The translations under genes and the position numbers were made by a program. Below, piece after piece: positions 5,334-8,580 of a stretch of 64,000 bases of DNA. The stretch is taken from positions 62,001-126,000 of the forward strand of contig NZ_PPCV01000001.1 in assembly GCF_004126535.1 (NCBI RefSeq). Direction: 5' to 3'. Position 1 is the first letter of the stretch, and each line of letters begins with the position of its first letter. This DNA is from Propioniciclava flava (GTDB lineage Bacteria; Actinomycetota; Actinomycetes; Propionibacteriales; Propionibacteriaceae). The notes under the pieces were generated by a model. That model worked only from the letters and a program-made list of their open reading frames with translations. It had not been told where the DNA came from and made no database searches.

Positions 5334-5879
5334 TTACTTCTCGCAGGCGATCCCATCCCCGTCGCGGTCCAGATGCTTGGCGTAGCCGGGTTGCCCTTTG
5401 TACAGGGGGGCCATGCCCGCGGCACGGACCGCAGCGCAATTCTTGTAGGAGGCGGCGGCTACGGCGACCTTGGTGGGCGCGGGATTCGCCGCTGCGGCCT
5501 TGGTCGCGGGGGCTGCCTTGGCCGCGACCACCGTGGTGCCACTGGCCACCCGCGTGCTACTCGTGGCACGCGTGCTGGTGGCCGGGGCCGGGACCGGGGC
5601 GAACCGCACGATCGTGGGCTGGCTGGTGGCGGTGGCGGGGGCTTGCGGTGCGGGCGGCTGGGTGGAAGCCGGGACCACGCTCGGCGTCAGGGTCGGGGTC
5701 GGCGTCGGGGTTGCGGTGGCGGTCGGGCTTGGGGTCGTGGTCGTCGCCGCGACCTGAGTGCTCGGCACTGCAGGGGTGGTGGCCGGGGCAGGGGTCAAGA
5801 CGCCACCGACGATCATCACCGCAACGGAAGCGACCTGAATCACGACGGACTGTAGTGGGGCGCAGCCCGCCCGAGCCAT
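5334..5879 (-). CDS. Secreted Excalibur calcium-binding domain protein
   Basis: An exported protein of 181 residues. It has a hydrophobic N-terminal segment (VASVAVMIVGGVL) that looks like a signal peptide, a long Thr/Pro/Ala-rich low-complexity spacer with TPTPTPTLTP, and a C-terminal Excalibur domain of about 35 residues: YKNCAAVRAAGMAPLYKGQ followed by DRDGDGIACEK. The DxDxDG loop resembles the calcium-binding loop of EF-hands, and two Cys flank the domain as usual for the family. The function of such proteins is mostly unknown; some are attached to surface nucleases. The start is uncertain. A GTG at 5843 (169 residues) lies 5 nt after TACAGT, the same hexamer used before recC, and could be a leaderless start. 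Confidence 0.8.
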   Translation of the reverse strand: MARAGCAPLQSVVIQVASVAVMIVGGVLTPAPATTPAVPSTQVAATTTTPSPTATATPTPTPTLTPSVVPASTQPPAPQAPATATSQPTIVRFAPVPAPATSTRATSSTRVASGTTVVAAKAAPATKAAAANPAPTKVAVAAASYKNCAAVRAAGMAPLYKGQPGYAKHLDRDGDGIACEK

Positions 5880-5907
5880 TCCGCGTGCCCGCCGCCTGCC
5901 CGCGGGT

Positions 5908-5913
5908 TAGGAT
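5908..5913 (+). promoter_or_regulatory. Predicted -10 box (TAGGAT) for a leaderless trpS leader transcript
   Basis: TAGGAT ends 7 nt before the ATG of the leader peptide. That spacing places transcription start at or next to the ATG. No convincing -35 hexamer is visible, as is common for actinobacterial promoters. Inference from sequence only. Confidence 0.55.
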
Positions 5914-5920
5914 GGAGGGC

Positions 5921-5950
5921 ATGAAGCAAACCGGGTGGTGGCGGTCGTAA
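5921..5950 (+). CDS. trpS leader peptide MKQTGWWRS
   Basis: A nine-codon ORF with two adjacent TGG Trp codons (5936-5941) and a TAA stop, 85 nt upstream of trpS. Consecutive Trp codons are very rare by chance. The position before a tryptophanyl-tRNA synthetase gene and ahead of two overlapping hairpins is the hallmark of a ribosome-mediated attenuator. A GGAGGG lies only 1 nt before the ATG, too close for normal Shine-Dalgarno use, which favours leaderless initiation. An in-frame ATG at 5912 would add MEG but overlaps the presumed -10 box. The peptide itself probably has no function beyond sensing charged tRNA-Trp. Confidence 0.7.
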   Translation: MKQTGWWRS

Positions 5951-6000
5951 CGACGGCCCCGGCAACAACCCTGGTAACGGCCGTCCTGCGGGCGGCCGTT
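5951..6000 (+). promoter_or_regulatory. Predicted Trp attenuator: alternative antiterminator and terminator hairpins
   Basis: The terminator-like hairpin has arms 5976-5986 (AACGGCCGTCC) and 5990-6000 (GGGCGGCCGTT) with a TGC loop: 11 bp including one G-U. The competing antiterminator pairs GACGGCC at 5952-5958 with GGCCGTC at 5979-5985, consuming the 5' arm of the terminator. A ribosome stalled at the first Trp codon would leave most of 5952-5958 free, so the antiterminator can form; a ribosome that reaches the TAA would cover it and allow termination. There is no long U tract after the stem, which is often true for high-G+C terminators. Folding was done by eye. Confidence 0.65.
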
Positions 6001-6035
6001 TCGCACGTTCGCGGGCCTTCACGACGAGGAGAACC

Positions 6036-7163
6036 ATGACCGACGACAGCCTGTCGACGCCTACCGACGAGGTGGGCGACGCGCTTGCCACCTCAACCTC
6101 GGAGGCGAGCCTGGCGCGCACGGAGCAACGCAGCCACGAGATCGAGGCGCAGATCGCCGCCGACCCCTCGAAGTTCCGCGTGATGACGGGGGACCGCCCC
6201 ACCGGCAGCCTCCACGTGGGGCACTATTTCGGTTCGCTCATGAACCGGGTGCGGCTCCAAAACGCCGGGGTCGACACCTTCGTGCTGATCGCCGACTACC
6301 AGGTCATCACCGACCGCGACGGCACAGGCCCCATCGCCGAGCGCGTGAGGGGATTGGTGACCGACTACCTGGCGGTGGGCATCGACCCCGGCAAGTCGAC
6401 CATCTACACGCACTCCGCAGTTCCTGCCCTCAATCAGCTGATGCTGCCGTTCTTGTCCTTGGTGAGCGATTCGGAGCTGTACCGCAACCCGACCGTCAAG
6501 GCCGAACACGAGGCCACCGGCGGCCGTCCCATGTCGGGGCTGCTGCTCACCTATCCCGTGCACCAGGCCGCCGACATCTTGTTCTGCAAGGCGAACCTCG
6601 TCCCTGTTGGCAAGGACCAACTCCCGCACCTGGAACAGACGCGTGTGATCGCCCGGCGTTTCGATGAACGCTATGGCCGAGCCAACCCGGATGCGCCCGT
6701 CTTCCCGCAGGCCGAGGCGCTCCTCAGCTCCGGATCGCTCATCCTGGGCCTGGACGGTGCCAAGATGAGCAAGTCGCGCGGCAACACCATCGAACTGCGG
6801 ATGACCGCCGATGAGACCGCGAAGTTGCTCAAGCGCGCCGTGACCGACTCCGATCGTCACATCACCTTCGACCCGGTCAACCGTCCCGAGGTGAGCAACT
6901 TGCTGACCTTGGCCGGGCTGGCCACGGGACGCGATCCGCGGGCGATCGCCGAAGAGATCGGCGACGGCGGTGGTGGCGGCCTCAAGCGCTACCTCACTGA
7001 GGTGCTCAACGAGATGCTCGCGCCGATCCGAGCCCGCCGTGCAGAGTTGGCCGCTGATCCCGGCTACCTCGCTGATGTCCTGGCGGCCGGCAACGCCAAG
7101 GCCAACGCCGTCGCTGATGCGACACTGCGGGAAGTCCGCGATGCCATGGGGATGGCGTACTGA
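6036..7163 (+). CDS. trpS: Tryptophanyl-tRNA synthetase
   Basis: Charges tRNA-Trp with tryptophan in the cytosol (EC 6.1.1.2; class Ic). The class I signatures are visible: TGSLHVGHYFGSL with the HIGH-like HVGH at residues 60-63, and KMSKS at 243-247. At 375 residues it has about 45 more N-terminal residues than typical bacterial TrpS. The ATG is preceded by GAGGAG at good spacing. A Trp-Trp leader ORF and overlapping hairpins precede it, so expression is probably controlled by tRNA-Trp charging. The stop overlaps the next gene as TGATG, so it heads a three-gene unit. Confidence 0.95.
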   Translation: MTDDSLSTPTDEVGDALATSTSEASLARTEQRSHEIEAQIAADPSKFRVMTGDRPTGSLHVGHYFGSLMNRVRLQNAGVDTFVLIADYQVITDRDGTGPIAERVRGLVTDYLAVGIDPGKSTIYTHSAVPALNQLMLPFLSLVSDSELYRNPTVKAEHEATGGRPMSGLLLTYPVHQAADILFCKANLVPVGKDQLPHLEQTRVIARRFDERYGRANPDAPVFPQAEALLSSGSLILGLDGAKMSKSRGNTIELRMTADETAKLLKRAVTDSDRHITFDPVNRPEVSNLLTLAGLATGRDPRAIAEEIGDGGGGGLKRYLTEVLNEMLAPIRARRAELAADPGYLADVLAAGNAKANAVADATLREVRDAMGMAY

Positions 7164-8044
7164 TGTCCGGCTCAGGAACGGTCGGCTGGGTGATCTCCCG
7201 GCGCACCGGGTGGCGCGCCGTCTGGGGCGCGCTCGGGATTCTCGTGTTCGGTGCGGCTTTCGTGGCTGCCCTGGTCGCCTTCATCGCCGCCCCCCACGTC
7301 GATTCAGGCATGCTGGTCATCATCACCTTGCCGTTCTTCGCGGCTGCGCTCGTGATGGCGGCTGAGGCGCTCATGCAGGGCATGGTGCATGTGGATCAGC
7401 AGGGATACACGATGCCCTTGCGCCCACGCCACGCCTGGAAGGATGTGCTCGGCGTCGGATTCGGCGAGGTCGACGGGCGGCGCCTCCCTGTCGTGGCGCT
7501 CGCCACCCCAGGCGACTTTCCGGTAGCCCAAGACACGTTCCCTGGGTTCGCCGATGACGATGGCGATGCCCTCGTGGAGGCGATGGTGCGCTGGACGGGT
7601 GACTCGCAAGGGTTTGCGGGGCTGCGCCCCAGCGAAGGCTGGTGGGCCGCAGCCGAAGCCGAAGCCGACCGGGTTACTGGTGTGGTGGAGGCGGCGTCGG
7701 GTCGTACGCCGGTGTCCCGGGAACGGGTGGCCTACGGCTATCCGGGAATGGTGAGCGCCATCCGACTCGACTATGGAACCAACGCGGCGGGAGACCTCGT
7801 GGAGGTGCTGTGCCGACGCACCAGCGATCTGGCCGTGACGCGGGAAGGACGGCGCTGGTTGCGCCAAAATCGCAAGCGCTCCGCTGACCCCGCAGGGCAG
7901 GTCGCCTGGTTGCTGGGCGACTATGAGGTGGCCCATGTCCCCAACACGGGGGCGGGCTTCGACCGATTGACCCTTCAGGTGCCCGGGCAACGCCCCCTGC
8001 GGTTTAACGCTGAGGAACCGGATCGATTCGCGGTGGCCGCATGA
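7163..8044 (+). CDS. Conserved-type hypothetical protein with two N-terminal membrane segments
   Basis: I do not recognise this family. The 293-residue protein has two hydrophobic stretches near residues 18-42 and 48-70 (WGALGILVFGAAFVAALVAF and MLVIITLPFFAAALVMAAEA), then a soluble C-terminal part of about 220 residues. The segment VHVDQQGYTMPLRPRHAWKDVLGVGF resembles the start of bacterial PH-like domains, but this is weak. Its ATG overlaps the trpS stop (TGATG), and its own stop overlaps the next ATG (ATGA), so the three genes are translated as one unit. Confidence 0.7.
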   Translation: MSGSGTVGWVISRRTGWRAVWGALGILVFGAAFVAALVAFIAAPHVDSGMLVIITLPFFAAALVMAAEALMQGMVHVDQQGYTMPLRPRHAWKDVLGVGFGEVDGRRLPVVALATPGDFPVAQDTFPGFADDDGDALVEAMVRWTGDSQGFAGLRPSEGWWAAAEAEADRVTGVVEAASGRTPVSRERVAYGYPGMVSAIRLDYGTNAAGDLVEVLCRRTSDLAVTREGRRWLRQNRKRSADPAGQVAWLLGDYEVAHVPNTGAGFDRLTLQVPGQRPLRFNAEEPDRFAVAA

Positions 8045-8580
8045 GTGCTGCCGAGGTTCGCGAATTGCCCCCCACCGAGGGAGGCGAACTGGACACCCTC
8101 CTGGGATTCCTGGAGTTCCAGCGCGGCACCATCGCCCTGAAGACGCAAGGCCTGGACGACGCTCAGTTGCGCACCCCCTTGCCGCCCTCCACCATGACGC
8201 TGGGTGGACTGCTGAAGCACCTGGCCTTCGTGGAAGACTTCTGGATCGGGATGACCGTGACCGGCCGAGAGCCTGCGGAACCGTTCGCGTCGGCCCCGTG
8301 GGGCGATGACCCCAACTGGGATTGGAGTTCATCGGCCTGGGACACCGCCGCCGAGGTGCGTGGCGGATGGGAGGCGGCGGTAGAGCGCTCCCGCACGGAG
8401 CTTGCCGACGTGATCCTCGACCTCGGGGATGCGGCGTTGGGGACGCGGATCCCGCGCTGGGAGTCCGACGAAGCGGTGTCTCTGCGCTGGGTGCTGCTGC
8501 ACCTGATCGAGGAGTACGCCCGGCATGCCGGACATGCCGATCTGCTGGCTGAGAACGTGGACGGACGCCTCGGGGTCTGA
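8041..8580 (+). CDS. DinB/DUF664 family protein
   Basis: A 179-residue four-helix-bundle protein of the DinB-like superfamily. The features are the N-terminal helix TLLGFLEFQRGTIALKT, the mid segment LGGLLKHLAFVEDFW with a predicted metal-binding His, and the C-terminal helix LLHLIEEYARHAGHADLL with HxxH-type His. Actinobacterial DUF664/DinB proteins include mycothiol-dependent transferases and maleylpyruvate isomerase relatives; the substrate here is unknown. It is the last gene of the trpS unit, joined by ATGA overlap, and is followed by a strong bidirectional terminator. Confidence 0.8.
   Translation: MSAAEVRELPPTEGGELDTLLGFLEFQRGTIALKTQGLDDAQLRTPLPPSTMTLGGLLKHLAFVEDFWIGMTVTGREPAEPFASAPWGDDPNWDWSSSAWDTAAEVRGGWEAAVERSRTELADVILDLGDAALGTRIPRWESDEAVSLRWVLLHLIEEYARHAGHADLLAENVDGRLGV

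Follow-up and report, generated by a model that had tools for sequence, protein, structure and literature searches.

A predicted tryptophan-codon attenuator in the leader of trpS in Propioniciclava flava and its relatives

The trpS leader and its surroundings

The window, by which we mean the whole 64,000-nucleotide stretch of Propioniciclava flava DNA analysed here, carries on its forward strand a tryptophanyl-tRNA synthetase (TrpRS) gene, trpS (6036..7163), preceded by a putative Shine-Dalgarno sequence, GAGGAG (6026..6031). The product scores above the TIGR00233 cut-off, and among solved structures its best relatives are 1yi8 and 2a4m; 2a4m is named TrpRS II, the type to which we assign the enzyme. 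As the one TIGR00233 match in this genome (G000), it is the sole TrpRS found there. Two genes 3' of trpS, at 8041-8580, lies a gene for a Mycothiol-S-transferase/DinB-type protein.

On the same strand upstream of trpS, a -10-like hexamer, TAGGAT (5908..5913), read as the trpS promoter, is separated by the 7-nt spacer GGAGGGC from the ATG at 5921. This codon opens a nine-codon leader ORF, MKQTGWWRS* (5921..5950), predicted to be leaderless, which contains tandem TGG codons, the presumed regulatory Trp codons (5936-5941), and ends in a TAA stop (5948-5950). Rereading the sequence placed all of these elements where the first-pass annotation had reported them. The leader RNA can be divided into four segments. 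Segment 1, GGUCGU (5943..5948), identified from folding and alignment, shares bases with the last part of the leader ORF and has its partner at 5953-5958. Segment 2, GACGGCC (5952..5958), can pair either with segment 1, acting as protector, or with segment 3, as antiterminator, as judged from pairing and blocked folding. Segments 3 (5976..5986) and 4 (5990..6000) are the 5' and 3' arms of a terminator hairpin of 11 pairs, including one G-U, closed by a TGC loop, which ends in a short U-run, UUU (5999-6001). Seven Watson-Crick pairs can alternatively join 5952-5958 to 5979-5985; because the 2:3 and 3:4 helices both need 5979-5985, they are mutually exclusive, and the two competing structures described earlier are indeed present. 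The 1:2 helix (5943-5948/5953-5958), which surrounds the leader stop codon and appears in the minimum-energy fold, had gone unnoticed in that annotation, and it is this helix that would make termination the default without a ribosome. The bases running past the terminator, TTTCGCACG at 5999-6007, often appear as TTTYGCATG in relatives, for no obvious reason.

The folding energy of the whole leader is mildly unusual (z -1.9, with 8 of 200 shuffles equally good), while that of the part after the stop codon has a z of -0.62 (52 of 200 shuffles). No Rfam family reaches its gathering score at the leader, the single sub-threshold match being a weaker hit to a miRNA model on the opposite strand; a T-box riboswitch before trpS was considered and rejected, as there is no Rfam T-box match. 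Among the trp biosynthesis genes of the same genome, no Trp leader was found: the two PF04715 loci (L171, L172) contain no adjacent-Trp-codon anchor of the kind defined below.

A predicted ribosome-controlled switch

The sequence elements, the mutual exclusivity of the helices, their recurrence and the computed switch led us to propose a model in which trpS is controlled by ribosome-mediated transcription attenuation responding to charged tRNA-Trp, on a leaderless transcript; we put the probability of this reading at about 90%. In this model, transcription would start at or beside A5921, and a ribosome would load directly onto the 5' AUG. With ample charged tRNA-Trp, the ribosome would pass UGG-UGG, reach the UAA at 5948-5950 and mask segment 2 (5952-5958), leaving segments 3 and 4 to pair, with transcription expected to end near 6001. 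Scarcity of charged tRNA-Trp, conversely, would stall the ribosome at 5936-5941, opening the 1:2 helix and leaving segment 2 mostly exposed, so that the 2:3 helix could form ahead of segment 4 synthesis and trpS would be transcribed. Without any ribosome, the 1:2 helix should form and termination would be the default. Under this model, the one TrpRS gene that we found in the genome would sense the shortage of its own product.

The first-pass annotation had proposed the same contrast between a stalled ribosome and one positioned at the stop codon, and blocked folding, in which ribosome-covered bases are held unpaired using footprint lengths taken from general knowledge, reproduces the predicted switch and so supports it. 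When the RNA ends at 5989, the 2:3 helix has a mean probability of 0.12 if no ribosome is present (with the 1:2 helix at 0.74), of 1.0 and 0.84 with the A site at the first and second Trp codon, respectively, and of 0.0 when the A site holds the stop codon. Once segment 4 is included, equilibrium favours the terminator whatever the state of the ribosome, at 0.78 to 0.98 across the four. Control must therefore be kinetic, as it is in known attenuators.

It is conceivable, though unlikely, that the hairpin works with Rho or by pausing, with the RNA shielded by the ribosome, instead of being a simple intrinsic terminator. Just three U follow the stem in the window, and the trpL2 leader of Streptomyces lividans TK24 is likewise described as having two hairpins past the leader ORF and no uridine-rich stretch (PMC8079986). 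Against this, a strong stem lies past the leader ORF in the leaders that we compiled from relatives, where the U-run varies from none (L131, among others) to five T (L116), and the overlap of the 2:3 and 3:4 helices would be needless for Rho.

A second alternative retains the attenuator and makes the leader peptide leadered, with transcription beginning further upstream and GGAGG (5914-5918) serving as Shine-Dalgarno sequence of the leader ORF. We regard this as quite improbable. The GGAGGGC spacer of the window does invite it, but an SD-like 4-mer is absent from the spacer of 38 of the 39 compiled leaders, the window's own being the exception, and the leaderless reading therefore fits better. 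The distance from the -10 to the start is also kept: all 39 compiled leaders (39/39) have TANNNT at 6 or 7 nt from the start, although the compilation itself required a -10, and the unbiased comparison is the anchor count given below. This distance matches expectation for a start codon that coincides with the predicted transcription start. The idea that some actinobacterial leader peptides are leaderless, invoked in the first-pass annotation, has a published basis in S. lividans, where eight leader peptides are reported, among them the comparable TrpL2 before trpS, described as leaderless from 5'-end sequencing (PMC8079986); that annotation did not mention this precedent. As a separate observation, several loci that have no Trp leader (L013, L016, L017, L023, L024, L025 and others) show TANNNT at 5-8 nt from the presumed start of trpS, which suggests that trpS itself may be leaderless there.

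To set the leader against chance, we counted TGGTGG as an anchor when a stop lay in frame within 20 codons and an ATG or GTG in frame within 25 codons, no promoter being required, and then asked whether TANNNT stood 5-8 nt ahead of such a start. Among 154 distinct segments covering the 300 nt upstream of trpS, 37/37 anchors show this spacing, at 32 loci and in 31 distinct leader ORFs, a WWW leader being counted twice. The corresponding figures are 1/68 for the rest of the same loci and 1/77 for mononucleotide shuffles; both strands of the 64-kb window hold 13 anchors, and the only one with the spacing is the trpS leader. These anchor counts are not probabilities, because related genomes are not independent; judged on sequence, the trpS leader in the window is nevertheless not a chance arrangement. 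A chance ORF or unrelated small protein beside a plain terminator, an idea that the abundance of short ORFs and the variability of the peptide outside WW might encourage, is scarcely credible given that adjacent Trp codons and -10 spacing coincide in those 31 leader ORFs, against 1/68 control anchors, and that the element precedes TrpRS genes of several types.

Recurrence and pairing among relatives

Within the genus, 11 of the 13 genomes (the window's included) match the window's trpS at 1e-60, and at nine of these 11 a Trp leader stands ahead of trpS, its start codon six or seven bases past a -10. Of these leaders, seven are of the WW kind (L081, L082, L083, L085, L086, L088 and L090) and two have a single Trp codon (L087, L091); no Trp leader was found upstream of trpS in L084 and L089. 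At L084 (G009, around 1440) the promoter is followed directly by GGCGGCCGTTTGC, which resembles a leftover terminator 3' arm, and the attenuator has possibly been deleted there, with that arm remaining. Across the family, the window's trpS is matched in 157/197 genomes, of which we sampled the upstream regions of 90, comprising the 30 best matches and 60 from further down the list; among these 60, one locus (L151) had too short a sequence. A Trp leader with a -10 is present at 34 of the 90 loci (21/30 of the best, 13/60 of the others) and absent from the other 56. The leader is thus dispensable, as it is absent from G005, G009 and G011 within the genus and from those 56 family loci. The first-pass annotation did not mention these gaps (two of 11 congeners, 56 of 90 family loci). 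Its expectation that the arrangement should survive in close relatives is borne out, since the Trp codons, the promoter-to-start spacing and the pairings recur there and in other families. Outside the family, leaders were found in Georgenia (L020), Austwickia (L022, L026) and an Actinomycetales MAG (L046), and apart from WW the peptide varies among the 39 compiled leaders.

A covariance model built from 14 leaders, with G012, G002 and G010 outside the training set, gives 94.5 bits at the window's leader, itself a training sequence, and 17.6 bits at its next match in the window. The large searches used stricter filters, so that their counts are lower bounds. In the family, matches occur in at least 37 of 197 genomes at E up to 0.01; 24 of them, 14 training and 10 not, fall below 1e-5, and all 24 have a same-strand TrpRS gene just downstream. 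The figure is 26 of 30 among family matches with a locus, a count outside which nine weaker matches stand. In the class, at least 20 of 296 genomes have a match, the window's own included. The other matches number 20, with 13 coming from a family designated f18; TrpRS-coding sequence lies downstream in 17, one of them partial (L294), and in L301, L306 and L308 no TrpRS was found downstream. Matches not near a TrpRS gene (L286, L287, L291, L301, L306, L308) were treated as noise.

L288 (G069) holds one further match away from TrpRS genes, on its minus strand, with a leader of its own, MQNMYSWWLA*, starting at around 1591 and followed by a gene at 462-1466. This leader is of the leaderless type, with a hairpin and a T-run. 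The gene behind it encodes a substrate-binding protein (PF04392) that matches a single NCBIfam model, TrpX, with a score under the cut-off; perhaps this is a Trp-attenuated tryptophan importer.

The type of the downstream enzyme and the presence of the leader can be set side by side in 40 regions upstream of TrpRS genes. A Trp leader with a -10 is present in 7/7 second copies from f18, and none was found in 4/4 other f18 copies or in the remaining 29 regions, one of which (L216) precedes a TrpRS bearing GDRPTG, a motif of the TrpRS type present in the window.

Comparison of the alternative pairings in 38 leaders relied on a script that takes the strongest stem past the stop, together with the upstream segment that pairs best with it; it always returns a pairing and is no test alone. 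It picked a later hairpin in L082, L160, L162 and L020, and the search covered L092 but not its near-duplicate L096. Segments 2 and 3 differ between distant clades and yet remain complementary, as GACGGCC/GGCCGTC in L081, GGCGGC/GCCGCC in L125, GCGGCC/GGCCGC in L158 and GCGACGG/CCGTCGC in L022. Swapping segment 3 among 20 representatives (L160 and L020 included with terminators set by hand, L162 left out) weakened the pairing, with 5 of 20,000 permutations reaching the own-pair sum, although several representatives pair equally well with the segment 3 of others. Against shuffles of their own regions, 11 of the 20 are at 0.05 or below for the 2:3 pairing.

In a close alignment of 21 rows (A2), 92.5% of 146 cells in the 2:3 helix are paired, but no pair has changed on both sides and the helix does no better than shuffles, because its core is nearly invariant. 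The comparison of relatives that the first-pass annotation had proposed is thus favourable for the WW ORFs, which recur, and divided for covarying stems, which appear by eye as differing yet complementary segments in distant clades and are missing as two-sided changes from the close set. The 1:2 helix in the window's register has all six pairs standard in 13 of the 21 rows and is broken in eight, and the window's U-G is C-G in several congeners. RNAalifold on a second alignment (A1) returned a mixed structure instead of the combination of 1:2 and 3:4. Gapped pairwise alignment gave no discrimination as a measure of leader identity and was set aside.

The trpS slot and its counterparts

The window's TrpRS type is missing from two congeners, G005 and G012. 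Each has a single TrpRS, scoring 346 and 337 bits, respectively, with TIGR00233 compared with 233 for the window's enzyme. The two enzymes are 35-36% identical to the window protein; that of G012, at 36%, is a type I TrpRS. The gene order NAD-GDH, PHP, trpS is identical in all six genus loci compared (for the window and G012 the PHP domain itself was verified), and a DEAD-box gene lies beyond in five of the six, the sequence of the sixth, G005, ending earlier. The window's next gene past trpS (7163-8044) has no match at the same place in G012, nor in G002, a genome that keeps TrpRS II.

In G012 (L226, minus strand), the type I trpS (5846-6904) occupies the same slot as the window's TrpRS II and follows a leader (6903-7008) encoding MHERLRWWRP*, with TAGTCT seven bases upstream. 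The covariance model built without G012 gives this leader 74.0 bits (E 5e-16), and congeners with TrpRS II that were likewise outside the training set score lower (G002 61.6, G010 60.2 bits). The G012 enzyme is 75-76% identical to proteins of three genomes from a family designated f29 and at most 67% identical to the others listed. A 25-row tree places G005 and G012 within f29 (group 100/99, inner fork 97/92), apart from six type I enzymes of their own family (100/99). No Trp leader was found at four f29 loci or at the six own-family type I loci checked.

Taken from sequence comparison, the simplest reading is that trpS was replaced in place, the leader being kept in G012 and absent from G005, which has the same replacement and no leader. 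A transfer that ran the other way, or a leader gained independently, would be a less simple origin for the G012 arrangement. We consider it likely that the attenuator is a regulatory slot that can outlive its enzyme, and that a foreign TrpRS took the place of trpS in G012 and came under the control of the switch.

The tandem Trp codons and segments 1-4 of the window recall the classical leader of the Escherichia coli trp operon, which has both. The E. coli leader differs in its leadered peptide with a Shine-Dalgarno sequence, its control of biosynthesis and its longer U-tract. Closer in target is an auxiliary, antibiotic-resistant TrpRS gene from Streptomyces coelicolor, for which Vecchione and Sello in 2010 (J. 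Bacteriol.) reportedly described ribosome-mediated transcriptional attenuation. The title of that paper points to the same regulatory principle on a TrpRS gene, auxiliary there and sole here.

The S. lividans TrpL2 system resembles the window in its leaderless Trp leader ORF before trpS, its two hairpins past the ORF and its lack of a uridine-rich stretch, the window's own run being UUU, and differs in that the published peptide has one Trp codon where the window's has two (PMC8079986). Leaders from f18 such as MTTRTCTQLWWAA, matched by our model built from Propionibacteriaceae leaders, are nearly identical to the trpL2 peptide as given there, suggesting that f18 is probably Streptomyces; in f18 the leader stands before a second TrpRS copy, in the window before the only one, of TrpRS II type. 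In Streptomyces avermitilis, candidate attenuators of trp operons and trpS2 share UGG repeats and a GC-rich terminator with the window, and by our own comparison their gGCC-rGCy-GGCC triples fit window segments 2-3-4; unlike the window, they have poly-U tracts. The accessible text names no Propionibacteriaceae trpS among its attenuators (PMC1262725). Nor did any title on trpS attenuation in Propionibacteriaceae appear among the matches listed from the open-licence literature, where the one paper retrieved on tryptophan leader attenuation with Propionibacterium was PMC1262725; this is a weak negative in view of that scope.

A Trp-codon leader switch before trpS is already known in Streptomyces, and the present one is not new in kind. 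Our results would extend Trp-codon attenuation of trpS to the Propionibacteriaceae, before the sole TrpRS found rather than a spare copy, and in a compact form (about 95 nt) in which promoter, ribosome entry and sensor would begin from one base. The parts that specialists may not expect are the position of a sole TrpRS II gene behind such a leader and the apparent enzyme replacement in G012. The latter may be viewed as a natural experiment, in which charging-state control would be independent of the type of TrpRS behind the leader, and it predicts that aminoacyl-tRNA synthetase leaders can bring incoming synthetases under control.
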